Below are positions 28 through 43,024 of a stretch of 43,024 nucleotides of DNA, one piece after another (position 1 is the stretch's first letter; each line of letters begins with the position of its first letter). The DNA is from Treponemataceae bacterium (lineage in GTDB: Bacteria; Spirochaetota; Spirochaetia; Treponematales; Treponemataceae), in NCBI GenBank assembly GCA_024680915.1, contig JAILBN010000087.1, positions 1 to 43,024 of the forward strand, read 5' to 3'. The notes beneath the pieces were generated by a model. The model saw only the letters and a list, made by a program, of their open reading frames with translations. It had not been told where the DNA came from and did not search any database. A program made the translations under genes and the position numbers.

Positions 28-3000
28 ATGAAACGAGAAGACATCAACAAGGTGTTGATTATTGGTTCGGGACCGATTGTTATTGGTCAGGCTTGTGAAT
101 TTGACTATTCGGGAACTCAGGCTTGTAAGGCTTTGCGCGAACAGGGCTACAAGATTGTTCTGGTTAACTCTAACCCTGCTACTATCATGACTGACCCGGT
201 TATGGCAGACGCTACTTATATTGAACCGCTGAACGTTGAGCGTCTTTCTCAGATTATCGAAAAGGAACGTCCTGACGCACTTTTGCCTAACCTTGGCGGC
301 CAGACTGGTTTGAACATGGCTATGGAGCTGAACAAGGCCGGCGTTCTTGATAAGTACGGCGTTAAGGTTATTGGTGTTAATCTTGATGCTATTGAACGCG
401 GTGAAGACCGCGAAATCTTTAAGGAAACTATGAAGGGACTTGGAATTGATACTCCTCGTTCCGGAATCTGTCATACTATCGAAGGTGCTGAAAAGATTGC
501 TGAAGAAATCGGCTTCCCACTGGTTGTTCGTCCTGCTTATACTATGGGCGGTCAGGGTGGAGGTTTCTGCTACAATGTTGAAGAGCTGCGTACTATTGTT
601 TCAAACGGTCTTGACCTTTCTATAACTCACCAATGTTTGATTGAAGAGTCTATTCTTGGCTGGGAAGAGCTTGAGGTTGAAGTTGTTCGCGACGCTAAGA
701 ATCAGATGATTGCTATCTGTTTTATTGAAAACATTGATGCTGTTGGTGTTCATACCGGTGACTCCTTCTGTTCAGCTCCTTTCATGACTATTGATAAAGA
801 GCTTGAAGAGAGACTTAAGAGAGATGCCTTTAAGATTGTTGAGTCGATTGGTGTAATCGGTGGTACTAACGTTCAGTTTGCACATAATCCAAAAACTGGT
901 CGCGTTGTTATTATTGAGATTAACCCTAGAACTTCCCGCTCTTCTGCCCTTGCTTCTAAGGCTACCGGTTTTCCTATTGCACTGATTTCTGCAAAGCTTG
1001 CCAGCGGAATGACTTTGGACGAGATTCCTTACTGGCGTGACGGTACTCTTGAAAAATATACTCCGGGTGGAGCTCCTGACGGGGACTATGTTGTTCTTAA
1101 GTTTGCACGCTGGGCCTTTGAAAAGTTCCGTGGGGTTGAGGATTCGCTTGGTACTTCCATGAAGGCTGTCGGCGAGGTTATGTCCATCGGTAAGACTTTT
1201 AAGGAAACCTTCCAGAAGGCTATCCGTGGCCTTGAAAACGGCCGCTCAGGTCTTGGCTTTGCTAAGGACTTCAACCGTAAATCTGCTGATGAACTTTGCG
1301 AAATGCTTAAGACTGCTTCCAGCGAAAGATATTTTCAGTTGTATGAAGCAATCCGTAAGGGTGTTGCTTTGGATAAGCTTGAGGATATTACTCATGTTAA
1401 GACTTACTTTCTGCAGCAGATGAAGGAGCTGGTTGAGCTTGAAGAGGAAATGCTTAAGAATCCGGGCCGCGTTCCAGAAGACAAGCTTTTGATTCAGGCT
1501 AAGAAGGACGGCTTCAGTGACAAGTATTTGAGCAAGATTCTGAAGGTTTCTGAAAAGGATATCCGTAATCGTCGTAAGGAGCTTGGCGTAACCGAGGCTT
1601 GGCTTGCGGTTCCTGTTAGCGGTGTAAAAAATGCTAATTACTATTATTCAACATACAATGCGGAGGACAAGGCTCCTGCAACTACAAACCCTAAGAAGAT
1701 TATGATTTTGGGCGGTGGTCCTAACAGAATCGGCCAGGGTATTGAGTTTGACTACTGCTGCTGTCATGCGGCTATGCAGCTTAAGGAGCTGGGCTACGAG
1801 ACAATCATCGTAAACTGTAACCCTGAGACTGTTTCTACTGACTATGATACTTCTGACAAGCTCTACTTCGAGCCTGTTACCACAGAGGATGTTCTTCAGA
1901 TTTACGAGAAGGAAAAGCCCTTCGGAGTTATCGTTCAGTTCGGTGGACAGACTCCGCTTAATATTGCCCGGGAGCTTCAGGAAAACGGCGTAAACATTCT
2001 TGGTACATCAATTGACTCAATCGACATTGCCGAGGACCGTGACCTCTTCCGCCATATGATGGAAAAGCTTGAGATTCCTATGCCGGAAAGTGGAATGGCA
2101 ATTGACTTTGAAGAAGCCAAGGCTTGTGCAGACAAGATCGGCTATCCCATTATGATTCGTCCTTCCTTTGTTCTGGGCGGCCGCGGTATGGAAGTTATTT
2201 ATGATGAGGCAACCCTCAAGGAATACGTTGCAAAGGCTGTTGGTGTAACACCGGATAGACCTTTGCTGATTGACCGCTTCTTAAAGAATGCCCTTGAGTG
2301 CGAGGCTGATGCTCTTGCAGACAGTAAGCACGTTTACATTCCGGCAGTAATGGAGCACGTTGAGCTTGCCGGCGTTCACTCCGGAGATTCTGCCTGTGTA
2401 ATTCCTCCGGTTAGTATTCCTCAGAACAATCTGGATACAATCAAGGAATATACAAAGAAGATTGCGGAGGCCCTTCACGTCTGCGGCTTGATGAATATGC
2501 AGTACGCTATTGAAGACGGCAAGGTTTATGTTATCGAAGCCAACCCCCGTGCTTCGCGAACTGTTCCTCTTGTTTCAAAGGTTTGTGACACACAGATGGC
2601 CCGTCTTGCTACCCGCATGATGCTGGGTGAATCTTTGGAGTCGCTTGGTCTTAAGGACAAGGTTATTCCTTACTTTGGCGCAAAAGAGGCTGTTCTGCCT
2701 TGGAGCCGCTTCCCTGGAGTTGACCCTATTCTTGGACCTGAAATGCGTTCCACTGGTGAGGTTCTTGGCCTTGCCGAAAGCTTCCCTCTGGCCTTCTACA
2801 AATCACAGGAAGCTGCCGGAAGTGAGCTGCCACATGCCCCTGCTGCCTGGGAAAACAAGAAGGTTCTTATTTCTTTAAGCAACAAGGAAAGCCAGAAGGA
2901 AGAGGTGCTTACAATCGGTAGGACCTTGAAGGATCTTGGCTTCACCCTGGTGGCCACAGAGGGAACCGCAGACTTCTACAACAGCAATGGTATAAAGTGC

Positions 3001-3276
3001 GACCTGGTGAACAAGATTGGTGCCGGCCGCCCTGACGTGGTGGACATGATTATGAACAAGGAAGTCTGCCTGGTTATCAACACTCCGAAAGCCAAACGCA
3101 ACTACGCCGAAGACCGCAAGACAATCCGCAAGGCTTGTCTCAAGTATAAGGTTTCTTACATCACTACACTTGCGGGTGCTCTGGCAGCGGTTCAGGGTAT
3201 AGCATCCGTAAAGAACGGTAACGGTGGTGAAGGCGGAGTTCGCTCACTTCAAGAGTATCATTCAATGATTAAGTAG
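28..3276 (+). CDS. carB: Carbamoyl-phosphate synthase large subunit (copy 1)
   Basis: The 1082-residue protein makes carbamoyl phosphate from bicarbonate, ammonia (tunnelled from the CarA glutaminase) and two ATP, for pyrimidine and arginine synthesis in the cytoplasm. The length matches the family (about 1070). The first ATP-grasp half opens with VLIIGSGPIVIGQACEFDY. The second half starts near residue 554 with IMILGGGPNRIGQGIEFDY, followed by the VLGGRGMEV loop. A C-terminal MGS-like allosteric domain runs from about residue 943 and includes INTPKAK. The start is set by ACAGGAG about 9 bases upstream. The 5' two thirds prefer T-ending codons (gct, gtt, ctt), and the 3' end is richer in C-ending codons. 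A second carB lies at 12046; only one carA is visible. Any leader lies outside the window. The 3' end is copied twice downstream. Confidence 0.97.
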   Translation: MKREDINKVLIIGSGPIVIGQACEFDYSGTQACKALREQGYKIVLVNSNPATIMTDPVMADATYIEPLNVERLSQIIEKERPDALLPNLGGQTGLNMAMELNKAGVLDKYGVKVIGVNLDAIERGEDREIFKETMKGLGIDTPRSGICHTIEGAEKIAEEIGFPLVVRPAYTMGGQGGGFCYNVEELRTIVSNGLDLSITHQCLIEESILGWEELEVEVVRDAKNQMIAICFIENIDAVGVHTGDSFCSAPFMTIDKELEERLKRDAFKIVESIGVIGGTNVQFAHNPKTGRVVIIEINPRTSRSSALASKATGFPIALISAKLASGMTLDEIPYWRDGTLEKYTPGGAPDGDYVVLKFARWAFEKFRGVEDSLGTSMKAVGEVMSIGKTFKETFQKAIRGLENGRSGLGFAKDFNRKSADELCEMLKTASSERYFQLYEAIRKGVALDKLEDITHVKTYFLQQMKELVELEEEMLKNPGRVPEDKLLIQAKKDGFSDKYLSKILKVSEKDIRNRRKELGVTEAWLAVPVSGVKNANYYYSTYNAEDKAPATTNPKKIMILGGGPNRIGQGIEFDYCCCHAAMQLKELGYETIIVNCNPETVSTDYDTSDKLYFEPVTTEDVLQIYEKEKPFGVIVQFGGQTPLNIARELQENGVNILGTSIDSIDIAEDRDLFRHMMEKLEIPMPESGMAIDFEEAKACADKIGYPIMIRPSFVLGGRGMEVIYDEATLKEYVAKAVGVTPDRPLLIDRFLKNALECEADALADSKHVYIPAVMEHVELAGVHSGDSACVIPPVSIPQNNLDTIKEYTKKIAEALHVCGLMNMQYAIEDGKVYVIEANPRASRTVPLVSKVCDTQMARLATRMMLGESLESLGLKDKVIPYFGAKEAVLPWSRFPGVDPILGPEMRSTGEVLGLAESFPLAFYKSQEAAGSELPHAPAAWENKKVLISLSNKESQKEEVLTIGRTLKDLGFTLVATEGTADFYNSNGIKCDLVNKIGAGRPDVVDMIMNKEVCLVINTPKAKRNYAEDRKTIRKACLKYKVSYITTLAGALAAVQGIASVKNGNGGEGGVRSLQEYHSMIK

Positions 3277-3587: not shown

Positions 3588-5519
3588 ATGTTCTATAAGA
3601 ATTTCAAGACAGTCACTTATTGTGTGGCTGGTTGGGTCAACCGTGTCACTGAGGAGCAGCTTCGTAAAGATGCGGATTTTTTCCAGAAGTATGTGAAGCT
3701 GGACAAAATCTATTTGGAGACATACCGGGATGAGTTTGCCTCCAAGGAAAAAATAGAGATGGTCAAGGGTGTGATGAAGGAATACGGAATAGAAGTTTCC
3801 GGCGGAATCACGACTGTGACTCCCAATCTCAATGAAAGCGACAAAAAAAGACAGCGCCTTTTCAATACCTTCTGTTACTGCAATGAAGCCATGAGAGCTC
3901 GTCTTAAGGAGGTCAGCGAGTACACGGCCTCCCTCTTCGACGAATTCATCATAGATGACTTTTTCTTCACCCAGTGCATGTGCGAGGACTGCATCCGTGA
4001 GAAAGGCAAGAGAAGCTGGCAGGACTTCCGGCTTGAGAAGATGCTGGAGGTTTCCGAGAATCTGATAATAAAGCCTGCCAAAAAGATCAATCCTAAAATC
4101 CACATCATAATAAAATATCCCAACTGGCGCGAAAGCTTCCAGGAGACAGGCTATAATCCCGGACAGCAGCGTGAGATTTTCGATTCAATCTACACAGGAA
4201 CAGAGACTCGCCATGGGGCCCAGCAGGATCAGCACCTGCCCCGTTACCTGAGCTATTCCCTTATGCGCTATTTTGAGAATGTGGCTCCGGGAAGAAACGG
4301 CGGAGGCTGGTTTGATCCCTTCGACTGCGACAGAATCGATACTTATCTTGAACAGGCATATCTGACGGCCTTCTCAAAGCCCAAGGAAATCATGATGTTC
4401 TGCTGGCCGGCTTTGGCTGGTAACAGAAGAGCGACACCCCTGGGCTTTATGTACGACAGGCTGGATGCTGTGCTGGGCCGGCTGGGAGAGCCCCAGGGCC
4501 TTAAGGTCTATATCCCCTTTAACTCTCAGGGGGATGACCATATAGAGGATTTCCTTGGGATGGCGGGTATCCCCATGGAGCCTGTCTGCGATTTCCCTGA
4601 GTTCGGTCTTTGCAGCTCCGGAGGAAAAGCTGGGGGCACAGCCTCCTCCTTCCATGCCTTCAATAATTCTGTCCTGGTCACTGCAGCCTCCCTTAAGGAC
4701 GAAAAAATCGTGGACAAGCTGAAGCTTTTTGTGGCGGCCGGAGGACATGCTGCAGCCACCTCAAGCTTCATGATAGGGGCTTTGGAAAAATACCCTGAGA
4801 TCAGGGATCTTACCAGTGTCCGCTACACAGGACGGTATCTTGCTGCAGATGAGTTCCAGTACAAGGTCTGCAGCCAGAATGGACGTAATTATATCAAGAG
4901 TGGAGAGACCATAGATTTTCCTATCCTTGAGCATCGAAACAACGCTTCCTGGTCTTTGATAAATGCAGGCCATGGGGAGTACCATGAGAGCATCCTCTGT
5001 TACGATACCTACGGAAAAGGCCGCTTCACCGTGCTTACTCTGCCTGATATGCCTTCAAGAATCTACAAGCTGCCTGCTCCTGTCCTGACCGCAATCCGGG
5101 AGGAGCTTGAGGTTTCAGGCATCTGGCTTGACTGTGGCAGTGGAGTTTCCCTTTTCACCTATGACAACAAATGCTTCGGGCTTTACTGCTATACCTGGGA
5201 CGGATGTGCTCCTTTGGATTTCAATGTCCATATCCGGGGAAAAATCAAAGAGCTTGTCCCTATCCCTGACAGTGACATTCCTAATCCTTGGAAATCGAAA
5301 CTCCTCGATCCCTTGTACGCAAGGAGTCTTGGCAGGCATTACACAGGCAGCTCTATCCCTGCCACACTTGAAGCTGAGATAAAGGCCAATGACTTGAGTG
5401 ATAAATCCACTCCGAAGAAGGGTGCTGACTCAGGAGAAGGTATTTGCGATTCCTGTGAGACAGTTTTCAATATCCGTATGATGCCGGGAGATTTCCAATT
5501 TTTCCAGATTAAGGAGTGA
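3588..5519 (+). CDS. Unknown protein, possibly glycoside-hydrolase-like
   Basis: I do not recognise this 643-residue protein with confidence. It has no signal peptide or membrane segment, so it is probably cytoplasmic. The first 300 residues look like a TIM-barrel sugar enzyme: regularly spaced beta-strand segments such as VTYCVAGWVN, KIYLETY and EFIIDDFFF, plus IHIIIKYPNW and EIMMFCWPAL, with acidic and Trp/Tyr residues at strand ends. A cysteine cluster CMCEDC follows the DD pair. The later part resembles a glutaminase-like flavodoxin fold plus a beta domain (GKGRFTVLTLPDMP), as in some multi-domain glycosidases. These are inferences from pattern only. The start is set by AGGAGG just before ATG. 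A TATAAT at 3524-3529 could be a -10 box, but I see no good -35. The small gene at 5533 follows after 13 bases and is probably co-transcribed. Confidence 0.75.
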   Translation: MFYKNFKTVTYCVAGWVNRVTEEQLRKDADFFQKYVKLDKIYLETYRDEFASKEKIEMVKGVMKEYGIEVSGGITTVTPNLNESDKKRQRLFNTFCYCNEAMRARLKEVSEYTASLFDEFIIDDFFFTQCMCEDCIREKGKRSWQDFRLEKMLEVSENLIIKPAKKINPKIHIIIKYPNWRESFQETGYNPGQQREIFDSIYTGTETRHGAQQDQHLPRYLSYSLMRYFENVAPGRNGGGWFDPFDCDRIDTYLEQAYLTAFSKPKEIMMFCWPALAGNRRATPLGFMYDRLDAVLGRLGEPQGLKVYIPFNSQGDDHIEDFLGMAGIPMEPVCDFPEFGLCSSGGKAGGTASSFHAFNNSVLVTAASLKDEKIVDKLKLFVAAGGHAAATSSFMIGALEKYPEIRDLTSVRYTGRYLAADEFQYKVCSQNGRNYIKSGETIDFPILEHRNNASWSLINAGHGEYHESILCYDTYGKGRFTVLTLPDMPSRIYKLPAPVLTAIREELEVSGIWLDCGSGVSLFTYDNKCFGLYCYTWDGCAPLDFNVHIRGKIKELVPIPDSDIPNPWKSKLLDPLYARSLGRHYTGSSIPATLEAEIKANDLSDKSTPKKGADSGEGICDSCETVFNIRMMPGDFQFFQIKE

Positions 5520-5763: not shown

Positions 5764-5792
5764 TTGACAAGAGGAGGTCAATTCACTAACAT
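5764..5792 (+). promoter_or_regulatory. asnB promoter
   Basis: TTGACA (5764-5769), 17-bp spacer, TAACAT (5787-5792). The predicted RNA start is near 5799, three bases before the antiterminator hairpin. Confidence 0.75.
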
Positions 5793-5801
5793 AAAAGCAT
5801 C

Positions 5802-5866
5802 ACGACAAAGAGGTCGTAGATAATGGTTCGAATACTCGAATCACTGTCTACGGCCTCTTTTTTTTT
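5802..5866 (+). promoter_or_regulatory. ANTAR-type attenuator of asnB (hexaloop hairpin plus terminator)
   Basis: The hairpin ACGAC-[AAAGAG]-GTCGT (5802-5817) has A at loop position 1 and G at position 4. Its loop and 3' arm (5807-5820) also pair with TCTACGGCCTCTTT (5847-5860) to form a terminator ending in a T run at 5866. The two folds exclude each other. An ANTAR protein holding the first hairpin would prevent termination and allow asnB expression. Confidence 0.82.
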
Positions 5867-5897
5867 GCCCTTTGCCTTGGGGTTGGAGGTTTTTTTT

Positions 5898-7739
5898 ATG
5901 TGCGGTTTCGTAGGATGTTTTGATTTGGATAGCGGGAGCAGGCCTATTGATCAAGGATTAAGAGAGGAGCTTCGTTCTCAGGTTCTGGAGATGAGCAAGA
6001 GAATCCGGCACAGGGGGCCTGACTGGAGCGGAGTTTATACCGGCGACAATGCCATTTTGAGCCATGAAAGGCTTTCCATCGTCGACCCTCTTTCCGGCAA
6101 ACAGCCCTTGGTCAGCGATGACGGAAAAATCATCCTGGCGGCTAATGGTGAGATCTACAATCACAAGAGCCTGCGACAGGAATTCCAAGGCAGCTACAAG
6201 TTCAGGACTGGCAGTGATTGCGAGGTCATAATCCCTCTTTATAAGGAAGCCATGAAAAGGTTTGAGAATTCCTCCTGCTCAAAAGAGGCTTCGTCCTCCT
6301 CGGCTGCCTTTTGCGATTTTACCACGATGATAGAAAAGCTTTCCGGCATCTTCGCCTTCGCCTTGTATGACAGTGAGCGGGATGTCTATCTGATTGCCCG
6401 GGATGAGATTGGAGTCATCCCCCTTTACCAGGGCTGGGACAAGAACGGCCGCTACTATGTGGCCAGCGAGCTTAAGGCCTTGGAGGGTGAGTGCGTATCC
6501 ATAGAGGAGTTCCCCAACGGCAGCTACCTTTTTTCAGGGGCAAGCGTCCGCTGGTACAAACGCCCTTGGGAAGCCTACGACAGTGTGAAGTCTGCGGCAA
6601 GAGCCACGGATGACAAGGGTCAAGTCATAAATCCTGCAGTTATAGACAAGGTTCGTAACGGTCTTGAAGCTGCTGTAAAGGCCCAGCTTATGAGTGACGT
6701 TCCTTACGGAGTTCTCTTGAGCGGCGGTCTTGATTCTTCAATCATAGCGGCTATAACTCAGAAATATTCAAAGAAGCGTATAGAGACAGACAGCAGGGAA
6801 AGCGCCTGGTGGCCCCAGCTCCACTCCTTCGCCGTGGGCCTTGAAGGCTCCCCTGACTTGATCGCTGCCCAGAAAGCCGCGGACTACATCGGCACCGTGC
6901 ACCACGAGGTTCACTTCACAATTCAGGAGGCTCTGGATGCCCTTCCTGACGTAATCTACCACATAGAGACCTACGACATAACCACGGTCCGGGCCAGTAC
7001 CCCCATGTACCTTCTTGCCAGGGTCATAAAATCCATGGGTATAAAAATGGTCCTGAGCGGAGAGGGCAGTGACGAGCTTTTCGGCGGCTACCTTTACTTT
7101 CACAAGGCTCCCAATGCCAGGGAATTCCACGAGGAGCTGGTCCGCAAGATGAGTAAGCTCCATCTTTACGATTGCCTCAGGGCTAACAAAAGTCTTATGG
7201 CCTGGGGCGTGGAGGGGCGGGTCCCCTTCCTGGACAAGGACTTCATCGACATCGCCATGGGACTGAACCCTAGTGACAAAATGAATATAAAGCTGTCTGG
7301 CAGCGCATCAAAGTCAGCTGGAGCAAGTCCGGCTTGCGGGGCAGGCGGACAGCGCATCGAGAAGTGGATTTTGCGTAAGGCCTTCGAGGATATGCTGCCT
7401 GAGGAAATCGTATGGCGGCAGAAGGAGCAGTTCTCTGACGGTGTTGGCTACAGCTGGATAGATACTCTGAAAAAAATCACTGAGGAGAAGGTCAGCGACC
7501 AGGAGTTCGCCCGCAGGGAAAACCGCTTCCCGGTGAATCCTCCAAAAACCAAAGAAGAATACTACTATCGGGAGATATACAGCCGGCTTTTCCCCAGCGA
7601 CAGTGCGGCAAAATGCGTGCCCCACGAGGCTGGAGTGGCCTGCAGCACGGCCAAAGCTCTGGAATGGGATGAGGCTTGGAAGAATATGGATGAACCCTCG
7701 GGGCGTTCAATCGCAGGGGTTCATGAGAAATCCTATTGA
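5898..7739 (+). CDS. asnB: Asparagine synthase, glutamine-hydrolysing
   Basis: The enzyme converts aspartate, glutamine and ATP to asparagine and glutamate. The start is placed at 5898 because it gives MCGFVGCF, with the class II glutaminase nucleophile Cys2, after a GGAGG site; the upstream in-frame ATG at 5823 lies inside the terminator. The glutaminase domain fills about residues 2-200. The PP-loop LLSGGLDSS is near residues 273-281, followed by GEGSDELFGGY. At 613 residues it is longer than typical AsnB (about 550). The excess is in a Ser-rich insert (SSCSKEASSSSAAF, about residue 127) and an Ala/Gly/Ser insert between MNIKL and RIEKWILR (about 465-485). It is controlled by the attenuator at 5802 and is followed by pyrG and carA, two further glutamine users. 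Confidence 0.95.
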   Translation: MCGFVGCFDLDSGSRPIDQGLREELRSQVLEMSKRIRHRGPDWSGVYTGDNAILSHERLSIVDPLSGKQPLVSDDGKIILAANGEIYNHKSLRQEFQGSYKFRTGSDCEVIIPLYKEAMKRFENSSCSKEASSSSAAFCDFTTMIEKLSGIFAFALYDSERDVYLIARDEIGVIPLYQGWDKNGRYYVASELKALEGECVSIEEFPNGSYLFSGASVRWYKRPWEAYDSVKSAARATDDKGQVINPAVIDKVRNGLEAAVKAQLMSDVPYGVLLSGGLDSSIIAAITQKYSKKRIETDSRESAWWPQLHSFAVGLEGSPDLIAAQKAADYIGTVHHEVHFTIQEALDALPDVIYHIETYDITTVRASTPMYLLARVIKSMGIKMVLSGEGSDELFGGYLYFHKAPNAREFHEELVRKMSKLHLYDCLRANKSLMAWGVEGRVPFLDKDFIDIAMGLNPSDKMNIKLSGSASKSAGASPACGAGGQRIEKWILRKAFEDMLPEEIVWRQKEQFSDGVGYSWIDTLKKITEEKVSDQEFARRENRFPVNPPKTKEEYYYREIYSRLFPSDSAAKCVPHEAGVACSTAKALEWDEAWKNMDEPSGRSIAGVHEKSY

Positions 7740-11891: not shown

Positions 11892-11920
11892 TTCCCAAAA
11901 AGCTGTTTTTTCGTTATAGT
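11892..11920 (+). promoter_or_regulatory. carB2 operon promoter
   Basis: TTCCCA (11892-11897), 17-bp spacer, TATAGT (11915-11920). The predicted RNA start at about 11927 is the base before the hairpin. The -35 is weaker than in the sister leaders. Confidence 0.6.
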
Positions 11921-11927
11921 ATCCCCA

Positions 11928-11971
11928 GTCAAAGGCGACACTATCCTTAGAGATGGTGTCGCCTTTTTTTT
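11928..11971 (+). promoter_or_regulatory. ANTAR-type attenuator of carB2-glnA-ANTAR
   Basis: GTC-[AAAGGC]-GAC (11928-11939) has loop A1 and G4. AAAGGCGACACTA (11931-11943) alternatively pairs with TGGTGTCGCCTTT (11954-11966), followed by a T run to 11971. The terminator is strong. The antiterminator stem has only three pairs and is the weakest of the set, but its position relative to promoter and terminator matches the others. Confidence 0.68.
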
Positions 11972-12045
11972 GTTGATGGGGATATTTTGGCAGGCAGGGA
12001 ATTGTTAGCCGCATGCTGCCATTATACCTGTTCGGGAGGTGTGTT

Positions 12046-15000
12046 TTGTCCTTGAAGAAAGATATTCATAAGGTGATGATCATAGGCTCCGGCCCCATTG
12101 TCATAGGGCAGGCGGCAGAATTCGACTACGCCGGCAACCAGGCTTGTAAGGCCTTGAAGCAGCTGGGCTTGGAGGTCTGCCTTGTGAACTCCAACCCGGC
12201 GACTCTTATGACTGACAGGACAATGGCTGACCAGATATACCTGGAGCCTCTTACCCTGACCACTCTTGAGCGTATTATCGAAAAAGAAAAACCAGATTCC
12301 CTGCTTTCCACCCTGGGAGGTCAGACAGGACTTACCCTGAGTATGGAGCTTGCTAAATCGGGCTTTTTGGAAAGTCACGGGGTTCAGCTGCTGGGAGCCC
12401 GGCCGGCCACAATTGACAAGGCTGAGGACAGGCAGCTTTTCAAGGACACCATGGAAGCCATAGGGGAGCCCTGTATTCCTTCCAAGGTTGTGACCAGCTA
12501 CGAGGCCGCTTCTGACTTCGTCCATAATGAGATAGGCTTTCCTGCCATTATCCGGCCGGCCTTTACCCTGGGGGGCACCGGGGGCGGTATAGTGAGCAAT
12601 GACAGGGAGCTTGACGAGATTGCCCACAACGGACTTCACCGTTCTCCCATCCATCAGATACTGGTGGAGAAATGCATATCCGGCTGGAAGGAAGTCGAGT
12701 TCGAGGTTATGCGAGATTCCAAGGGAAACGTGATAACAGTCTGCTCCATGGAGAACTTCGACCCGGTGGGCGTTCATACGGGAGACTCCATCGTTATAGC
12801 TCCCACAGTGACCCTTGCTGACAGGGAATATCAGATGCTGCGCTCGGCGGCCCTGAACATTATAAGTGCCCTGGAGATTGAGGGTGGCTGTAACTGTCAG
12901 TTTGCCTTGAATCCTGAAAGCTTTGAATATGCTGTGATAGAAGTGAATCCCCGTGTCTCCCGGTCCTCGGCCCTTGCCAGCAAGGCTACCGGCTACCCCA
13001 TCGCCAAGGTGGCCGCCCTTATTGCGGTAGGGCTTACCCTGGATGAGATTCCCAACTTCGTCACAAAAAAGACCAAGGCCTGCTTTGAGCCGGTGCTGGA
13101 CTATGTGGTGGTGAAAATGCCCAAGTTCCCCTTCGACAAATTCGTTTATGCCGCCAGAAAGCTGGGCACCCAGATGAAGGCCACCGGCGAGGTCATGGCC
13201 ATAGGTCAGAGCTTTGAGGAGGCCATTCTTAAGGCTGTGCGGGGCCTTGAGGTGGGAGTGAAGGATTTGAACCTGCCTGCTTTTGAGAAAGAAGGGGATG
13301 AGAAAATCAGGGAGAGGGTAGGCCAGTGCAGTGACCAGAGGATTTTTGCCCTTTACCAGGCTCTTAAGCGGAGCCTTTTCAGTGTGGAAGAGCTTCACCA
13401 TATAACGAAGATTGACAAGTGGTTTTTGTGGAAGCTGGAGAATATAGTAGAGCTGGAAAAGCAGGCTGAGGAAGCGGCCACGAAAGCTGAAGCGGCCGAG
13501 AAAGCCGGAGCTGCCGCCAAGACCCAAGGCAAGGGCTCTTCTTCAAAACTTTTATTTCCTCCCCGCTCCTTCAAAATGGTTGACACCTGTGCCGGCGAGT
13601 TCGATGCGGAGACTCCCTATTTTTATTCCACCACAGGCGGTGAAAATGAGGCTGAGCTTTTCTTGAAAGAGGGTAGCGGGGGTTTTACGGGGGCGGCAGC
13701 CCCTGTAGAAGGGGGTGTCGGCGCGACCTTGTGCGCCGCAGGGGGAAGGCCTTCCCCCTCCCAGTCCTCCAAGGGGACCATCGTGGTTTTGGGGTCGGGT
13801 CCTATCCGTATTGGTCAGGGAATTGAGTTCGACTATTCTTCGGTCCAGTGCATCTGGGCCTTGAAAAAGCTGGGCTATCAGGTGGCTATCATCAACAATA
13901 ATCCGGAGACTGTCTCCACAGATTTTGATATTGCTGACCGGCTTTATTTTGAGCCGCTGACTCCTGAGGATGTGATGAATGTCCTGGCTGTGGAAAAGCC
14001 CTTGGGGGTTGTGGTGGCCTTTGGTGGCGGGACTGCCATCAAGCTGGCGAAATTTCTGGACGGGCAGGGAGTCCGCATTTTTGGAACCAGTGCCGATGCC
14101 ATAGATCTGGCGGAGGACAGGGAGCGCTTTGAGGAGCTTTGTGAGAAGCTTTCCATCAACCGACCCCGGGGTATTACGGTATTCACGGAGGTGGAGGCTC
14201 TGGAGGCAGGCGCACGCTTGGGCTACCCTGTTCTTATGAGGCCCAGCTATGTTCTGGGCGGTCAGAATATGATCATTGCCCGTAACAGTGCCGACGTGAA
14301 GGAGTACATGAAGATTATCCTGAGGGGCGGAATCGAGAATCCAATCCTTATCGATAAATACATGGAGGGTAAGGAGCTGGAGATTGACTGCATCTGTGAC
14401 GGTGAGGATGTGCTTATTCCCGGTATTATGGAGCATGTGGAGAGGACGGGTATACATTCCGGTGACTCTATCGCAGTTTATCCACCCTGGAGCTTTACCC
14501 CGGAGATGACCCGGGAGGTGGTGGAGAAGTCTACTGCCATGGCTCTGGCCCTTGGGACCAAGGGCTTGGTGAACATCCAGTGGCTTTTTTACCAAGGCCA
14601 GCTGAACATTATTGAGGCCAATCCCCGGTCAAGCCGCACGGTTCCCTATTTGAGCAAGGTTACCGGCATTCCCATGGTGGAGCTTGCCACGCGGGCCATG
14701 CTGGGGGAAAGGGTCCGGGACCTGGGCTTCGGAACCGGTCTTTACCGCCGGCCTTCCTACTATGCGGTAAAGGTACCTGTCTTCAGCTTTGAGAAGCTTA
14801 TGGACGTGGATACCCACCTGGGGCCGGAGATGAAATCCACCGGCGAGGTTCTGGGTATTGCTGCCAGCCGGGAGGAGGCTCTTTTCAAGGGAATGGCGGC
14901 GGCCGGCTGGAAGATGCTTCACCCCAAAGCTGCGACCGCCGGAAATGAGGCGGTTTCGACCACAGGAGCGGTTGGAGCTTCTGGTGGGGCTTGGGGCGAA

Positions 15001-15456
15001 GGGGCTGCGACCGCTGGGGAGTCTGCGACCGCCGGAGGGGCTGCTACCAGTGGCGCCACTGCGGGAATCCTCTTTTCTGTCCGTCAGTCCGACCTGCCTG
15101 AGCTGCCGGAGCTGGCCCGTAAGTTCTACCAGCTGGGCTTCAAGCTCTATGCCACAACTGGAAATGCCGTCACCATAGAGCGCAGCGGTATGCCAGTCAC
15201 CCATGTGGCCAAGGTCCACGAGGATTACCACAATAACGTTATGACCCTGCTGGAAAGCGGTAAGGTTGTCTATGTGGTCTCCACCTCGGCCAAGGGACGG
15301 GACCCGGTGGCAGAAAGCGTTAAGCTGCGCCGTCTTGCCGTGGAGAGGGATATTGATTGCTTCACAGCCCTGGACACAGCCAATGCACTGGCTGACTGTC
15401 TTTTGTCCGGTTATAGCTTGGAAAAAGCCCAGTTGCTTGATATTTGTAGATTATAG
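12046..15456 (+). CDS. carB: Carbamoyl-phosphate synthase large subunit (copy 2, with inserts)
   Basis: A second complete CarB, about 1136 residues. I start it at TTG 12046, because GGAGGT ends five bases before it and the product then begins SLKKDIHKVMIIGSG; ATG 12013 is in frame but has no good ribosome site. Both ATP-grasp halves are present (LGGTGGG in the first, VLGSGPIRIGQGIEFDY opening the second, VLGGQNM in its loop). A C-terminal MGS domain with VVSTSAKGRDPVAES follows. Two inserts absent from copy 1 are a low-complexity Ala/Gly/Pro stretch before the second half (about 475-575) and an Ala/Thr/Gly-rich linker before the MGS domain (about 960-1006). glnA-like follows after 43 bases without a terminator. 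Confidence 0.95.
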   Translation: MSLKKDIHKVMIIGSGPIVIGQAAEFDYAGNQACKALKQLGLEVCLVNSNPATLMTDRTMADQIYLEPLTLTTLERIIEKEKPDSLLSTLGGQTGLTLSMELAKSGFLESHGVQLLGARPATIDKAEDRQLFKDTMEAIGEPCIPSKVVTSYEAASDFVHNEIGFPAIIRPAFTLGGTGGGIVSNDRELDEIAHNGLHRSPIHQILVEKCISGWKEVEFEVMRDSKGNVITVCSMENFDPVGVHTGDSIVIAPTVTLADREYQMLRSAALNIISALEIEGGCNCQFALNPESFEYAVIEVNPRVSRSSALASKATGYPIAKVAALIAVGLTLDEIPNFVTKKTKACFEPVLDYVVVKMPKFPFDKFVYAARKLGTQMKATGEVMAIGQSFEEAILKAVRGLEVGVKDLNLPAFEKEGDEKIRERVGQCSDQRIFALYQALKRSLFSVEELHHITKIDKWFLWKLENIVELEKQAEEAATKAEAAEKAGAAAKTQGKGSSSKLLFPPRSFKMVDTCAGEFDAETPYFYSTTGGENEAELFLKEGSGGFTGAAAPVEGGVGATLCAAGGRPSPSQSSKGTIVVLGSGPIRIGQGIEFDYSSVQCIWALKKLGYQVAIINNNPETVSTDFDIADRLYFEPLTPEDVMNVLAVEKPLGVVVAFGGGTAIKLAKFLDGQGVRIFGTSADAIDLAEDRERFEELCEKLSINRPRGITVFTEVEALEAGARLGYPVLMRPSYVLGGQNMIIARNSADVKEYMKIILRGGIENPILIDKYMEGKELEIDCICDGEDVLIPGIMEHVERTGIHSGDSIAVYPPWSFTPEMTREVVEKSTAMALALGTKGLVNIQWLFYQGQLNIIEANPRSSRTVPYLSKVTGIPMVELATRAMLGERVRDLGFGTGLYRRPSYYAVKVPVFSFEKLMDVDTHLGPEMKSTGEVLGIAASREEALFKGMAAAGWKMLHPKAATAGNEAVSTTGAVGASGGAWGEGAATAGESATAGGAATSGATAGILFSVRQSDLPELPELARKFYQLGFKLYATTGNAVTIERSGMPVTHVAKVHEDYHNNVMTLLESGKVVYVVSTSAKGRDPVAESVKLRRLAVERDIDCFTALDTANALADCLLSGYSLEKAQLLDICRL
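13660..13770 (+). repeat. In-frame palindromic insert in carB2 (first)
   Basis: It contains GGGGAAGGCCTTCCCC and GGCGCGACCTTGTGCGCC in open frame, just before the second ATP-grasp half. The first palindrome is nearly the same as the one inside purF. Confidence 0.7.
14930..15060 (+). repeat. In-frame low-complexity insert in carB2 (second)
   Basis: Imperfect repeats of GCTGCGACCGCYGG encode an Ala/Thr/Gly-rich linker between the second synthetase half and the MGS domain. Confidence 0.65.
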
Positions 15457-15499: not shown

Positions 15500-16678
15500 A
15501 TGTACACAGAAAGCGAAGTTTTGGATTATGTGAAAGAAGAGGATGTTAAGTTTGTCCGCCTTGCCTTTTTTGACTTAAAGGGTGTTCAGAAGAATATCTC
15601 CATTATGGCGGGTCAGCTGGAAAATGCCTTCCGCAACGGGGTCAGCTTTGATGCCTCGGCCATATACGGCTTTGAGAAAGCTGAGAAATCCGACCTCTTT
15701 CTATTTCCTGATCCTGCCACCCTTTCTGTTCTTCCCTGGCGCCCAACTGCAGGTAAGGTAGTCAGAATGTTCTGTACCATAAAATACCCAGATGGCCGGG
15801 AATATGAGAAGGATTGCCGCACCCTGCTCCGCAATACCGTTAAAAGGGCAAAGGATGAGTACGGCATAGATTTCAGAATCGGTACGGAGATTGAATTTTA
15901 CCTCTTTAAGCTTGATGAGAAGGGTGAGCCCACAAAGATTCCTTTCGATAACGCCAGGTATATGGATATTGCCCCCATGGATAAGGGAGAGAATATCAGA
16001 CGGGAAATCTGCTTTACACTGGAGCAGATGGGTATTCAGCCTGAGACCAGTCACCACGAGGAAGGTCCCGGCCAGAACGAGATAGACTTCCATTACTCCG
16101 ATGCGGTGACTGCCGCAGATAATGCCGCTACCTTCAAGTGGATTGTCCGGACTCGGGCTGCCAATGCAGGACTTTATGCGGATTTCTCCCCTAAACCCCT
16201 GGAGAATGAGGCTGGAAGCGGACTGCATATAAACCTCTCCTGCTCAGATTCTTCTAAAAATCTCAATGCCCTGGCAGGAATACTCAAACATGCGGAGGAA
16301 ATCACCTATTACCTTAATTGCAAGGGAGAGTCTTACCTAAGATTGGGTGAGAAGAAAGCACCCAAGTATATCTGCTGGGGACCGGAGAACCGCCTTGCCC
16401 TTATCCGACTGCCGGCTGTGACCACGGCCTCTTCCCAGCGTCTGGAGATACGCTCCGCTGACTGCGAATGCAATATCTATCTTGTGCTTAATCTTTTGAT
16501 TCATGCCGCACTGGATGGAATAAAGAATAATCTGGAGCCGCCGGCAGCCATGGCGGGTGACGGCATGAGTGAACAGCTGGCAAAGGACGCAGGGCTTAAA
16601 AGCCTGCCTTCATCCCTGGACGAGGCGAAAAGGCTTGCGGAAGCCAGCAGCTTCGTCAAGGAAGCTCTTGGCTTTTAG
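15500..16678 (+). CDS. glnA: Glutamine synthetase-like protein (type I family, short form)
   Basis: A 392-residue member of the GSI family (usual 440-470). Family marks in order: FDASAIYGF with Asp51 (E. coli Asp50), metal ligands Glu130 and Glu132 in TEIEF, Glu188 and Glu194 in HHEEGPGQNEID, and His243 in GSGLHINLS. They continue with Arg281, Arg298 and Arg303 in the flap/NRLALIRLP region, then Arg314-Glu316. The flap position that carries catalytic Glu327 in GSI (normally EAP) is Lys286 in GEKKAP. The metal site is therefore kept while a catalytic residue is changed. It could be a poor enzyme, a variant ligase or a nitrogen sensor. GAGGTG precedes ATG. It lies between carB2 (43 bases) and the ANTAR gene (9 bases), so a shared operon is likely. 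Confidence 0.88.
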   Translation: MYTESEVLDYVKEEDVKFVRLAFFDLKGVQKNISIMAGQLENAFRNGVSFDASAIYGFEKAEKSDLFLFPDPATLSVLPWRPTAGKVVRMFCTIKYPDGREYEKDCRTLLRNTVKRAKDEYGIDFRIGTEIEFYLFKLDEKGEPTKIPFDNARYMDIAPMDKGENIRREICFTLEQMGIQPETSHHEEGPGQNEIDFHYSDAVTAADNAATFKWIVRTRAANAGLYADFSPKPLENEAGSGLHINLSCSDSSKNLNALAGILKHAEEITYYLNCKGESYLRLGEKKAPKYICWGPENRLALIRLPAVTTASSQRLEIRSADCECNIYLVLNLLIHAALDGIKNNLEPPAAMAGDGMSEQLAKDAGLKSLPSSLDEAKRLAEASSFVKEALGF

Positions 16679-16687
16679 GGGAATTAA

Positions 16688-17254
16688 ATGACTGCTGATA
16701 CACACAGCGTTCTTGTGGTGACGAAGGACAGTAAGCTTTCCTCCATGACCAGCACCTTCCTTATGCCTCCTCTTTTTGACACTCAGATTGTGGGTGATTT
16801 CAACGAGGCCCGCCGTATGACCTCCGAGCGTGTCTACAATATAGTGCTGGTGGATTATGGTGAAGGAGCCGGCGTGGATTTTGCCAGGGACCTTTCGGAT
16901 TCTCTCAGTACTATCCTTTTGCTTACACCCCAGACCCTTTACGAGGAGATAAGCTACCGGGTGGAAGGCTACGGTATAATAACGGTGGGCACACCCTTTG
17001 ACCAGTTCATCTTTTACAACAACCTTAAGACTGCCATTGCAGTCAGCTACAAGGTGAAGATGCTGCAAAGCCAGACTACAAAGCTTAAGATAAAGATGGA
17101 GGAGATCCGCCTGGTCAATCGTGCCAAGATGCTGCTTATGCAGACCTTGAAGCTGACGGAGCAGGAAGCCCATCACTATATTGAGAAGGAAGCCATGAAC
17201 CGCGGCCTTAGAAAGACCGCAGTCGCTGAGGAGATTATCAAAACCTACGGTTGA
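16688..17254 (+). CDS. ANTAR-domain transcription antiterminator (atypical receiver)
   Basis: The 188-residue protein has an N-terminal receiver-like domain (about 6-120), a coiled linker, and a C-terminal ANTAR RNA-binding domain (about 130-186). The ANTAR part shows the three-helix pattern with VNRAKMLLMQTLKLTEQEAH and the AMNRG turn. The receiver keeps Asp56 and Thr80 but has only one N-terminal acidic residue (Asp14) and Thr102 in place of the conserved Lys. Phosphorylation control is therefore doubtful. ANTAR proteins (AmiR, NasR, EutV) bind hexaloop RNA hairpins and block terminators. Clostridia are known to carry an AmiR-like gene next to glnA. Here the gene follows glnA-like after nine bases and is the obvious regulator of the eight hexaloop attenuators in this window. 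Confidence 0.92.
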   Translation: MTADTHSVLVVTKDSKLSSMTSTFLMPPLFDTQIVGDFNEARRMTSERVYNIVLVDYGEGAGVDFARDLSDSLSTILLLTPQTLYEEISYRVEGYGIITVGTPFDQFIFYNNLKTAIAVSYKVKMLQSQTTKLKIKMEEIRLVNRAKMLLMQTLKLTEQEAHHYIEKEAMNRGLRKTAVAEEIIKTYG

Positions 17255-24221: not shown

Positions 24222-25796
24222 CTACACCGGATATTGACCGCAGAAGCAGCCCTCGCACCAGTCCTGATCCTCTGCCTGGCAGCAGGAACGAAGAGCCTTT
24301 TTCATCCCCTCCAGCGAGATAAAGGCCAAAGAATCTGCCCCTATCTCCTGCCTTATTTCCTCCAGCTTATGTGTGCTGGATATAAGCTCGTTCTTACTGG
24401 GAGTATCAATTCCCAGATGGCAGGGAAACTTTACCGGAGGGGAGGATACCCTGAAATGAACTTCCCTGGCTCCGGCCCGGCGTAAAACCTCCACAAGGCG
24501 GCGGCTGGTGGTTCCTCTTACAATTGAGTCGTCTATTACTATGACCCTCTTCCCCTCCAGATCGTCCTTTATAGCGTTCAGCTTGACGAAGACCATGGCC
24601 TCCCTTTCCTCCTGGGTAGGAGCTATGAAGGTACGCCCTATATATTTGTTCTTGATTATTCCTGTCACGTAAGGAATCCCGCTTGCCCTTGAATAGCCAA
24701 GGGCCGCTCCTATACCACTGTCAGGTACTCCCACCACCACGTCGGCCTCAATCCCCGACTCATGGGCCAGAATCTCTCCCATCTTGTAGCGGGCCTTCTG
24801 CACCGGGATCCCGTCAATCTTGGAGTCCGGCCGGGCAAAGTAAACGTACTCGAAGATGCAGGTTCGCTTCTTGCCCTCATCATACATGGTCGAGCTTATA
24901 CCGTCCTTGGTTATCACGACGATCTCACCGGGAGCCAGATCCCTGATAAAGCTTCCGTTGACCGCATCCACGGCACAGGATTCTGAGGCAAGGATATATG
25001 AAGCTGAAGGGGAAAGCCTTCCCCTCGCTTCAAATGTCGCTGACGCGCCATTTTCCGCTACCCCTTCTGCGGGGGGCTCCCCCGCAAGGCCCCCGGACTT
25101 GTCGCTCTTCTTTATCTGCCCCAGACAGAGGGGCCTTATTCCGTTGGGATCGCGGACACCTATAAGCATATTCTCAGTCATAATGCATAGGGCGAAGGAG
25201 CCCTTTATGAGCTTTGCTGTCTGAATTACAGAATCTATGAAAAGTCTCTGGCTTTCGTCCTCTATATTGGAGAAATCCGCCCAATCAGACTGGGAGGGAG
25301 CCTGCTTTTTCCTGGGGCTGCCCAGCTTTCCTCCGTTCTCTATGAATTTGCGTACTATAAGCTTAAGTATTACTTCACTGTCACTGGAGCTTGAGAAGGT
25401 GCTGCCGTGATCCTCCAGCATCTCTCTCAGTTCTGTATGGTTCACCAGCTGACCATTGTGGGCCAGGGCTATGGAGCCGTTCTTGAAGGTGTTAAGAAAA
25501 GGCTGGGCATTCTCTATGGTCCTTCCGCCGGCTGTGGCATAGCGGACATGACCCACGGCTATGGAGCCCTTCAGGTTGTCGAAATCGGACTGCTTGAAGG
25601 TCTCTCCCACAAGCCCCATACCCTTGTGAAGGGTAATCTTTTTTTTATCCTCCAGCTTGCTTTTGGGGTCGCTTACCGCTATACCCGCGCTTTCCTGACC
25701 GCGATGCTGCAGAGCAGTCAGCGCGAAATAAGAAAGCCCCGCCGCATTCTCGGCCCCGAAAATACCTACGACACCACATTCGTCATGAAAACCCAT
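24222..25796 (-). CDS. purF: Amidophosphoribosyltransferase
   Basis: The first committed enzyme of purine synthesis, making phosphoribosylamine from PRPP and glutamine. The 524 residues are of the Bacillus type. A six-residue propeptide precedes nucleophile Cys7 in DECGVVGIFG. The PRPP loop VIVIDDSIVRGTT is near 417-429. Four [4Fe-4S] ligands are visible: Cys in CIFEYVYFARPDS, in CHLGIDTP and two in CEGCF near the C-terminus. An insert of about 30 residues (about 230-264) before YILASESCAVD is palindrome-derived. GAGGGG precedes ATG. Expression is probably governed by the attenuator at 25815-25880, and purA, purC and cysK follow on the same strand. Confidence 0.97.
   Translation of the reverse strand: MGFHDECGVVGIFGAENAAGLSYFALTALQHRGQESAGIAVSDPKSKLEDKKKITLHKGMGLVGETFKQSDFDNLKGSIAVGHVRYATAGGRTIENAQPFLNTFKNGSIALAHNGQLVNHTELREMLEDHGSTFSSSSDSEVILKLIVRKFIENGGKLGSPRKKQAPSQSDWADFSNIEDESQRLFIDSVIQTAKLIKGSFALCIMTENMLIGVRDPNGIRPLCLGQIKKSDKSGGLAGEPPAEGVAENGASATFEARGRLSPSASYILASESCAVDAVNGSFIRDLAPGEIVVITKDGISSTMYDEGKKRTCIFEYVYFARPDSKIDGIPVQKARYKMGEILAHESGIEADVVVGVPDSGIGAALGYSRASGIPYVTGIIKNKYIGRTFIAPTQEEREAMVFVKLNAIKDDLEGKRVIVIDDSIVRGTTSRRLVEVLRRAGAREVHFRVSSPPVKFPCHLGIDTPSKNELISSTHKLEEIRQEIGADSLAFISLEGMKKALRSCCQAEDQDWCEGCFCGQYPV
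24990..25100 (-). repeat. In-frame palindromic insert inside purF
   Basis: It contains GGGGAAAGCCTTCCCC and a G-run/C-run inverted pair around GGGGGGCTCCCCC, in open frame, between the glutaminase and transferase parts. It is closely similar to the insert in carB2. Confidence 0.7.
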
Positions 25797-25814: not shown

Positions 25815-25880
25815 AAGAAAAAAAGACGTCGTAAAAAATGCCCGACATTCTCAGACTCTTTTTACGGCGTCTTTGCCATA
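25815..25880 (-). promoter_or_regulatory. ANTAR-type attenuator of purF
   Basis: Read on the minus strand, TATGGC-[AAAGAC]-GCCGTA (25880 to 25863) is a six-pair stem with one wobble and loop A1, G4. The segment AAAGACGCCGTAAAAA alternatively pairs with TTTTTTACGACGTCTTT, followed by T residues to about 25815. Confidence 0.82.
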
Positions 25881-37144: not shown

Positions 37145-37197
37145 AAAAAAAGCCGCACCTACAGAAAGACTTTCCTGCGGATGCGGCTTCGTTGCCG
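37145..37197 (-). promoter_or_regulatory. Second ANTAR-type attenuator of gltB
   Basis: Minus strand CGGC-[AACGAA]-GCCG (37197 to 37184), loop A1 and G4. Its 3' arm is the start of a terminator pairing GCCGCATCC with GGTGCGGC, followed by seven T (to 37145). It lies about 100 bases downstream of the first module and about 50 bases before the start codon. Confidence 0.72.
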
Positions 37198-37245
37198 ACT
37201 TTGAGATAGCATTGTCTTGGCAGCCTGGCTTTTGGAGGCCGGCCA

Positions 37246-37309
37246 TAAAAAAAGGTCGTAGATATAACCTCGTCCATACACGAAATTTTATCTACGACCT
37301 CTTTGTCGT
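37246..37309 (-). promoter_or_regulatory. First ANTAR-type attenuator of gltB
   Basis: Minus strand ACGAC-[AAAGAG]-GTCGT (37309 to 37294), identical in stem and loop to the asnB hairpin. AGGTCGTAGATA alternatively pairs with TATCTACGACCT near 37264-37253, followed by a T run (to about 37246). Confidence 0.83.
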
Positions 37310-37319
37310 TCTGAAAGGC

Positions 37320-37385: not shown

Positions 37386-37414
37386 TTGACAATTTTTTTT
37401 CAAAACTGTATAAG
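37386..37414 (+). promoter_or_regulatory. dapF promoter
   Basis: TTGACA (37386-37391), 17-bp spacer, TATAAG (37409-37414). RNA start near 37421, about six bases before the hairpin stem. Confidence 0.78.
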
Positions 37415-37426
37415 CAAAATATAAGA

Positions 37427-37474
37427 CGACAAAGAGGTCGCAAAGTTTTTTTACTTTGCGGCCTCTTTTTTTTT
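37427..37474 (+). promoter_or_regulatory. ANTAR-type attenuator of dapF
   Basis: CGAC-[AAAGAG]-GTCG (37427-37440), loop A1 and G4. AAAGAGGTCGCAAAGT (37431-37446) alternatively pairs with ACTTTGCGGCCTCTTT (37453-37468), followed by T residues to 37474. Confidence 0.82.
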
Positions 37475-42448: not shown

Positions 42449-42460
42449 CGAATTATCAAA

Positions 42461-42502
42461 CGACAATGAGGTCGCGGAAATGATGTTTCTGCGACCTTTT
42501 TT
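42461..42502 (+). promoter_or_regulatory. First ANTAR-type attenuator of glnN
   Basis: CGAC-[AATGAG]-GTCG (42461-42474), loop A1 and G4. GGTCGCGGAAA (42470-42480) alternatively pairs with TTTCTGCGACC (42486-42496), followed by a T run to 42502. Confidence 0.82.
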
Positions 42503-42594
42503 GTTTTCTGACGACTTGTATTATAATCCCGCGAGTTATATGCAGTTTGCTGCATGGAACTCGCCAAACAAAAGTGCGAAAGCATTTTTGAGTA

Positions 42595-42659
42595 TGGCAA
42601 TGGCGCCGCATTTTTTTCCGGGGGACGCCCCGCGAAAAATATTGTGGCGCCTTTTTTTT
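42595..42659 (+). promoter_or_regulatory. Second ANTAR-type attenuator of glnN
   Basis: TGGC-[AATGGC]-GCCG (42595-42608), loop A1 and G4, resembling the purF hairpin. GGCGCCGCA (42602-42610) alternatively pairs with TGTGGCGCC (42643-42651), followed by eight T. Confidence 0.72.
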
Positions 42660-42795: not shown

Positions 42796-43024
42796 ATGGA
42801 CGATGTAACAGCAATTTTTGGAGAGAATGTCTTTAACGAGGCGGTTATGAAAGCAAGGCTGCCCAAAGAGACTTTCAAGCAGTTGATGAAGACAATCGAG
42901 GGAGGCGAGAAGCTTGACCCCTCTGTGGCCACCGTTGTGGCAAACGCCATGAAGGACTGGGCCCTTGAGAAGGGAGCCACTCATTTCACCCACTGGTTCC
43001 AGCCTCTTACGGGCATCACGGCAG
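42796..43024 (+). CDS. glnN: Glutamine synthetase type III, N-terminal part (runs off the window)
   Basis: The first 76 codons of a type III glutamine synthetase, which joins ammonia to glutamate with ATP. The visible part begins [18 protein letters not shown] and ends in [22 protein letters not shown], the characteristic GSIII N-terminal block. The full family is about 700 residues, so most of the gene lies beyond the window. GGAGG lies six bases before ATG. Two attenuators in series and a multi-hairpin repeat make a leader of about 340 bases. This is probably the main ammonia-assimilating synthetase, since the glnA-like protein at 15500 has an altered active site. Confidence 0.93.

Follow-up and report, generated by a model that had tools for sequence, protein, structure and literature searches.

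The locus raises the question of how a glutamine synthetase (GS)-like gene and the ANTAR gene directly behind it are related to a series of terminator-overlapping hairpins that precede nitrogen-related operons on the same stretch of DNA. That stretch, hereafter the window, is an entire contig of 43,024 nucleotides (nt) (JAILBN010000087.1, C106 in our numbering) from the genome of a Treponemataceae bacterium (GCA_024680915.1; 3.15 Mb in 134 contigs), whose nearest named records in a genome-collection scan were rumen and gut Treponema metagenome-assembled genomes. The GS-like gene (15500..16678, + strand) encodes a protein of 392 amino acids (aa), as defined by Pfam and NCBIfam searches, alignments and an AlphaFold model. 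The ANTAR gene (16688..17254, + strand) encodes 188 aa comprising a degenerate receiver, a coiled coil and an ANTAR domain, as defined by PF03861, a structural model and the receiver motifs. The reading that we favor, with a rough probability of 0.68, is that these genes belong to a NitR-type nitrogen antitermination regulon, in which the target RNAs carry a single hexaloop and a GS-derived sensor sequesters the ANTAR protein.

As claimed in a first-pass annotation of the same sequence, eight hairpins with A at position 1 and G at position 4 of a hexaloop (A1/G4) overlap terminators in front of six operons, preceding asnB, carB2, purF, gltB (two), dapF and glnN (two). The asnB leader (5801..5864, + strand, loop start 5807; leader match E=1.9e-8) contains ACGAC[AAAGAG]GTCGT, the loop being given in brackets, behind a predicted promoter TTGACA-17-TAACAT at 5764-5792. 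The purF leader (25819..25880, - strand, loop start 25874; E=4.5e-8) contains TATGGC[AAAGAC]GCCGTA behind TTGACA-17-AATAAT at 25918-25890, and the first gltB element (37248..37310, - strand, loop start 37304; E=4.5e-7) contains ACGAC[AAAGAG]GTCGT behind TTGACA-17-TAGTAT at 37348-37320, with a second gltB element in tandem (37145..37199, - strand, loop start 37193; CGGC[AACGAA]GCCG). On the + strand, the dapF leader (37425..37471, loop start 37431; E=8.8e-7) contains ACGAC[AAAGAG]GTCGC behind a predicted promoter TTGACA-17-TATAAG at 37386-37414, and glnN is preceded by two elements in tandem, ACGAC[AATGAG]GTCGC (42459..42503, loop start 42465; TTGACA-17-TATAAA at 42420-42448) and TGGC[AATGGC]GCCG (42593..42657, loop start 42599). 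The carB2 leader (11925..11969, + strand, loop start 11931) is the weakest, GTC[AAAGGC]GAC having a stem of only 3 bp; it overlaps a terminator at 11931-11966, follows a promoter-like sequence at 11892-11920, and recurs with identical sequence in the related genome G005 (G005:C106:13415). The tandem gltB elements are also present in G005, and the dapF leader in both G001 and G005.

A1 and G4 are found in all eight loops (AAAGAG, AAAGAC, AAAGGC, AATGAG, AATGGC and AACGAA), all of which are closed by a C-G pair, and the stem measures 4-6 bp in seven of the eight hairpins. When the 5' half of a leader is folded alone, the hairpin is obtained (-2 to -7 kcal/mol), whereas the full leader folds into the terminator (-22 to -35 kcal/mol; shuffle z-scores of -4.3 to -9.6). 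The 5' arm of the terminator re-uses the loop and the 3' stem of the hairpin, so the two folds are mutually exclusive; and since the terminator is far more stable, the hairpin would win only co-transcriptionally or with help. Scanning for a hairpin plus terminator gave 25 sites in the Treponema loci (309 kb) and 24 in the loci from Clostridia (536 kb), whereas shuffled copies contained none.

Judged from its sequence, each element is a single hexaloop located a few bases downstream of a TTGACA-17-TATAAT-like predicted promoter, a feature that the first-pass annotation had missed. In two scanned regions, the strongest promoter-like sequences lie directly 5' of the elements (TTGACA-17-TAACAT, -AATAAT and -TAGTAT). 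In the related loci, the distance from the end of the -10 box to the loop is 10-20 nt, mostly 12-17 nt; with a transcription start about 7 nt past the -10 box, only a few bases would separate the 5' end from the hairpin. The P2-type feature of the dual-hexaloop ANTAR RNAs, an A1/G4 hexaloop on an intrinsic terminator, is present in all eight elements of the window and in the relatives, whereas the P1 feature of the canonical dual-hexaloop target is absent: no second A1/G4 hexaloop with a stem of at least 4 bp was found within 60 nt upstream of any of the eight elements, and among 64 promoter-linked related sites an upstream A1/G4 hexaloop occurs at five, compared with 2.8 expected by shuffling. 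A dual-hexaloop reading was rejected on these grounds, the upstream hexaloops being at chance level and the promoter leaving no room. An extra hairpin is found downstream at 17 of the 64 related sites, and several operons carry single elements in tandem, each with its own terminator. Additionally, no Rfam family reached its gathering score in the window or in 10 related loci, and at a relaxed threshold only chance-level matches appeared.

Further elements outside the window can be mentioned here. In a clostridial genome, two identical hairpins AAAGGC[AAGGGC]GTCTTT stand 71 nt apart (L253:1507 and L253:1578), an apparent duplicated attenuator. At least one more element of the Treponemataceae genome, the ninth, was found before amtB on contig C116 by the leader model R1 and a short pattern (G000:C116:15782-15824; L033, L109); it is accompanied by one or two further hexaloop-like hairpins in tandem, the third of which has G rather than A at loop position 1.

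The first-pass annotation had made the idea depend on covariation of the hairpins in related genomes and on co-occurrence of the leaders with the ANTAR gene, and both were observed, the covariation extending to the terminators. For covariation we relied on a site set chosen independently of pairing, namely the sequence CAANGNNG with a promoter scoring at least 10/12 located 9-22 nt upstream (n=76; background n=3315). Two earlier covariation counts, A1 and A2, had looked strong as well, but they drew mostly on sites chosen beforehand for pairing. In the 76 promoter-selected sites, stem positions 2-5 are paired in 95, 93, 83 and 64% of the cases, compared with 37-41% in the background, and a T-run follows 22-90 nt downstream in 84% compared with 17%. 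Stem position 2 is occupied by A-U, G-U, G-C or U-A, and position 4 mostly by C-G, G-C, A-U or U-G. This covariation at sites selected by their predicted promoter supports the antiterminator hairpin itself. A degenerate IUPAC pattern for the hairpin plus T-run gave match counts near those of its control and was uninformative, and a short pattern with two mismatches allowed gave, beyond the known sites, fewer matches than its control pattern.

Co-occurrence was assessed in 40 relatives with the model R1. The search is lossy, as it scores about 130-150 of the several hundred to 3000 candidates per genome; of the elements of the window, those of carB2 and the second one of gltB escaped it. Every genome with a leader match at E<=1e-4 has an ANTAR gene. 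Among genomes at least 95% complete, a leader match at E<=1e-3 was found in seven of 10 with an ANTAR gene and in none of 19 without one (Fisher p = 8e-5); within the family alone, the figures are seven of 10 and none of five (p = 0.026). R1 matches in the ANTAR-less order-level relatives G025, G029 and G039 were discarded, as no A1/G4 hairpin is found there, and so was a match in G038, whose hairpin has only 3 bp. In G023 (L025:10718, - strand) and G008 (L026:10013, - strand), a single-hexaloop terminator stands before a divergent ANTAR gene that has no adjoining GS-like gene, suggesting that another ANTAR lineage is autoregulated.

The genes that directly follow the elements in the Treponema relatives are asnB, gltB, glnN, purF, pyrG, carA, carB2, dapF and the GS-like/ANTAR pair. 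In the Clostridia they are the GS-like gene, pyrG, a GOGAT glutaminase-type gene, glnN and a distant relative of asnB, to which a reading of the translations adds asnA, gdhA and nadE. The common theme of these targets is the assimilation of ammonium and glutamine, together with the enzymes that use glutamine.

The single ANTAR gene reported by the first-pass annotation directly behind the GS-like gene stands: it matches PF03861 with 54.8 bits (gathering score 27.3), and it is the only ANTAR match in the genome. The predicted fold consists of a receiver-like domain, a long helix and the ANTAR domain (predicted local distance difference test score, pLDDT, 90.1), and its best matches among solved structures are Rv1626, EutV and AmiR. 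The residue set of a phosphorylated response regulator of the EutV type (acidic pair, phospho-Asp, Thr or Ser, and Lys) is incomplete in the window protein, where VTKDS replaces the acidic pair and VGTPF the KP motif, so that the conserved Lys is missing, while Asp56 is kept. In the relatives the acidic pair is lost throughout, and the phospho-Asp is Asn in most Clostridia. By analogy with AmiR and NasT, control of the ANTAR protein by a partner is more likely than control by phosphorylation (PMC3795266).

The GS-like protein matches Pfam Gln-synt_N and Gln-synt_C, and it scores 333 bits against the NCBIfam model for type I glutamate-ammonia ligase, less than the cut-off of 429 bits. Its AlphaFold model (pLDDT 94.6) matches solved GS structures over the full length, with Z scores of 53.4 to 8tfk and 49.8 to B. 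subtilis 4lni (residues 4-411 of the 443-residue chain). K286 (bases 16355-16357) occupies the position of the catalytic flap Glu of active GS-I (E327 in Salmonella numbering), which lies at the ammonium site. This Glu is kept in all four canonical Treponema GlnA proteins, and it is replaced in all 74 scored members of a 75-sequence clade (support 100), by Lys in 70, His in two, Asp in one and Ser in one; the first-pass annotation had missed the loss of this residue as well. Compared with canonical GlnA, members of the clade have a flap shorter by one residue and a C-terminus shorter by about 29 residues: the C-terminal segment, the last 30 or so residues of dodecameric GS-I, is absent from the GS-like protein, which has about 29 residues past LPxSL compared with 57 in canonical GlnA. 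The window protein retains the metal, nucleotide and glutamate ligands E129, E131, E212, E220, H269, R321, R339, R344, E357 and R359, and the other active-site residues are retained in 93-100% of the Lys clade. Individual members have lost different ligands (E131C, E212D and E220G in G018; E129D, R339L and E357K in G010; E129K in G007; also L189 and L216), and the pairing with the ANTAR gene persists. The conserved Lys together with the conserved ligand sites points to a retained binding function rather than decay; and since the genome additionally encodes a type III GS and a 442-aa GlnA (contig C74), the cell can dispense with the GS-like protein as an enzyme. From these features, the GS-like protein appears catalytically inactive, and its role is probably that of a nitrogen sensor and not of an enzyme.

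An alignment-based ANTAR scan of the genome collection gave 29 Treponema or spirochaete loci and 50 others, nearly all from Clostridia. A GS-like gene lies directly upstream of the ANTAR gene in 29 of the 29 Treponema loci and in nearly all of the 50 others. The arrangement is of the NitR/glnA type, an ANTAR gene adjoining a type I GS-family gene, with targets in nitrogen assimilation. The clostridial GS partners are mostly 50-58% identical to the GS-like protein of the window, whereas the canonical Treponema GlnA proteins are 41-43% identical to it. In a GS tree (a quick tree with support from the SH-aLRT, the Shimodaira-Hasegawa-like approximate likelihood-ratio test, only), the Treponema pairs fall at three places, which suggests that the pair was transferred between phyla. 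The Treponema of the window, like many gut Clostridia, appears to turn on its nitrogen-assimilation operons through one RNA-binding protein, which would read a single small hairpin at the 5' end of each transcript.

The regulon that we favor would work as follows. Each target operon would be transcribed from a sigma-70-type promoter, and the first transcribed bases would form one hairpin of 4-6 bp with a C-G-closed AANGNN hexaloop, whose 3' half doubles as the 5' arm of an intrinsic terminator. An ANTAR dimer would capture the hexaloop as it emerges from RNA polymerase, blocking the terminator and allowing read-through, whereas without capture transcription would end within about 60 nt; some operons would carry two or three such elements in tandem. 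With a receiver that is degenerate and probably not phosphorylated, the signal would come through the GS-like partner encoded just upstream, which most likely binds glutamine or another metabolite of nitrogen status. When nitrogen is plentiful, the glutamine-bound GS-like protein would hold the ANTAR protein inactive, and a drop in glutamine under nitrogen limitation would set it free. The RNA binding, the direction of the switch, the ligand and the protein-protein contact are inferred, the direction by analogy with AmiC-AmiR, NasS-NasT and the B. subtilis GS-TnrA pair. At little better than even odds, we would extend the proposal to a widespread single-hexaloop class in Treponema and Clostridia, in which a GS has been made a dedicated glutamine sensor (flap Glu to Lys, loss of the C-terminus) that sequesters the antiterminator, and in which nitrogen assimilation and the synthesis of nucleotides and amino acids are set jointly at the level of termination.

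It is important to mention the observations that weigh against the proposed regulon. Antitermination in E. faecalis eutP depends on both hairpins (PMC3369931, PMC8934654), and a single hexaloop may not suffice here in the way proposed. Nine of the 11 paired GS proteins outside the Lys clade keep the flap Glu and are mostly full length; thus, loss of catalysis is not required for pairing, and the substitution seems to have arisen once and to have been kept since. No R1 leader match was found in the ANTAR-containing genomes G008, G019 and G023, and none that was convincing in G003. The situation that the first-pass annotation had named as telling against its idea, leaders kept in genomes that lack the ANTAR gene, was found in G004 alone, a genome 93% complete with leaders before glnN, asnB, gltB and pyrG (L103, L107) in which neither the GS-like nor the ANTAR gene was detected; it is the sole unexplained exception, the 19 ANTAR-less genomes of at least 95% completeness having none. 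Leaders are also present in G006 and G012, where no ANTAR gene was found, but there the GS-like gene is cut at a contig end, and the absence is therefore an assembly gap.

Three other explanations were considered. The leaders of G004, and the fact that bare terminators can yield R1 matches, such as the palindromic ones in G004:C40, would fit ordinary attenuators or mRNA-capping terminators read by another RNA-binding protein or by transcription-translation coupling, with the ANTAR gene a coincidental neighbor. We consider this improbable, given the co-occurrence among the more complete genomes and the gaps in G006 and G012; moreover, A1, A2, G4 and the C-G closing pair recur in both phyla and would be needless for a bare attenuator, A1 and G4 are the bases that EutV requires (PMC3369931), and a hairpin of this kind also stands in front of the divergent ANTAR genes in G008 and G023. 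Canonical dual-hexaloop RNAs, with a P1 hairpin overlooked and a true transcription start farther upstream, would agree with the dual form being the sole one shown to antiterminate (PMC8934654), but the near-chance count of upstream hexaloops and the short distance between the -10 box and the loop make this explanation the least probable of those considered. Less far-fetched, though still unlikely, is that the ANTAR antitermination is real while the GS-like protein is merely a co-transcribed enzyme, for example a gamma-glutamyl ligase acting on another nucleophile, and the input to the ANTAR protein comes from elsewhere. Nearly all other active-site residues and the GS fold are retained in a high-confidence model, amine-specific relatives of GS exist, and GmaS-type structures are among the structural matches. 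However, the two genes are adjacent across two phyla, the flap residue is Lys or His in 72 of 74 members, which presumably disfavors an amine in the ammonium site, the variable loss of metal and substrate ligands has not separated the pair, and the genome has its 442-aa GlnA and type III GS besides.

In C. thermocellum, according to the title of one paper (pmid 28400329), deletion of the type I glnA "deregulates nitrogen metabolism", which we take as context rather than proof. In the same species, the ANTAR gene Clo1313_2030 adjoins glnA Clo1313_2031 (PMC4676874), and in C. saccharobutylicum NitR is described as an inducer of the GS/GOGAT genes when nitrogen is limiting (review PMC6316151, citing Stutz 2007). 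The window shares with these clostridial systems the ANTAR gene beside a type I GS gene and, as the role proposed here, antitermination of GS/GOGAT genes under nitrogen limitation. It differs in the Lys that replaces the catalytic Glu, the shortened C-terminus, the spirochaete host, the additional purine, pyrimidine, asparagine, diaminopimelate and ammonium-transport targets, and an RNA that is defined here as a single hexaloop. The EutV/EutW system of E. faecalis has in common with it a receiver-like domain and coiled coil in the ANTAR protein, an A1/G4 hexaloop on a terminator, and several attenuators per regulon, but EutV is phosphorylated by a kinase and requires both of two hexaloops, whereas here the receiver is degenerate and the hexaloop single.

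The AmiC-AmiR and NasS-NasT pairs are complexes of a partner with an ANTAR protein (PMC3795266), in which a neighboring small-molecule-binding protein, rather than phosphorylation, regulates the ANTAR protein, as is proposed here. Those receptors release their ANTAR protein upon binding of the inducer, whereas here the partner is a derivative of GS and would be expected to follow the opposite logic. In B. subtilis, GS binds TnrA under nitrogen-rich conditions (PMC6316151), and the GlnA-TnrA/GlnR systems of Bacillus thus offer a GS that senses nitrogen by direct contact with a regulator, as may be the case here; that GS is active and its regulator binds DNA, whereas here the GS-like protein is apparently inactive and an RNA-binding regulator is expected.

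ANTAR antitermination of nitrogen genes and its breadth were already known (PMC3369931, PMC3369936). Ramesh et al. (2012; PMC3369931) reported 13 RNA hits for a single bacterium, Desulfotomaculum acetoxidans, spread over six nitrogen transcription units; there, too, one RNA motif precedes many nitrogen genes. The notion of the first-pass annotation that so broad a regulon would be unusual was consequently abandoned, whereas its interpretation as a regulon held with regard to the one ANTAR gene, the leaders, their covariation and co-occurrence, and the adjacent GS-like gene. The model of Ramesh et al. is a dual-hexaloop one, and their main text mentions neither a spirochaete nor a single-hexaloop class. 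According to the 2022 structure of EutV with RNA, one hexaloop is the minimal ANTAR binding unit; the need of eut for two is unexplained there, and searches for single hexaloops are called for (PMC8934654). As far as we have searched the literature, three features are new: a regulon in which the single hexaloop is the rule, a partner derived from GS in which the Glu-to-Lys change is conserved, and the occurrence in spirochaetes; no GS pseudoenzyme paired with an ANTAR protein was found, nor any nitrogen regulator of such kind described for rumen and gut spirochaetes and Clostridia. For these organisms the analysis provides a concrete hypothesis of nitrogen control, in which one conserved substitution seems to have made a sensor of a central metabolic enzyme, and with dozens of natural single-hexaloop attenuators with defined targets, the two-hexaloop question becomes directly testable.

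Regarding the operons themselves, carB2 (12013..15456, + strand) is the first gene of carB2-GS-like-ANTAR, which is probably a single operon; the same order of homologous genes is found in the relatives L144, L152, L168 and L169. The gene asnB (5899..7739, + strand) heads asnB-pyrG-carA; its start was corrected from 5823 to 5899 (MCGF...), and the asnB terminator thus lies within the untranslated leader. The gene purF (24222..25796, - strand) is followed by purA and purC, and glnN, encoding the type III glutamine synthetase (42797..43024, + strand), is represented by its 5' end only, as the contig end cuts the gene. The window contains two carB paralogues about 9 kb apart (28-3276 and 12013-15456), the latter with the GS-like/ANTAR operon, and carA is placed in the asnB-pyrG operon. 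An open reading frame of 643 aa at 3588-5519, between carB1 and asnB, has no Pfam or NCBIfam match. Between the dapF leader and the start codon, a GC-rich unit of 36 nt repeated about 14 times (37517-38038) occupies the entire interval, so that leader and gene are about 590 nt apart. Finally, arrays of a hairpin unit of about 63 nt (cccgactaaa...tttagtcggga) at 40400-41080 and 42025-42280 border an open reading frame of 293 aa (41118-41999, - strand), which likewise matches no Pfam or NCBIfam entry.

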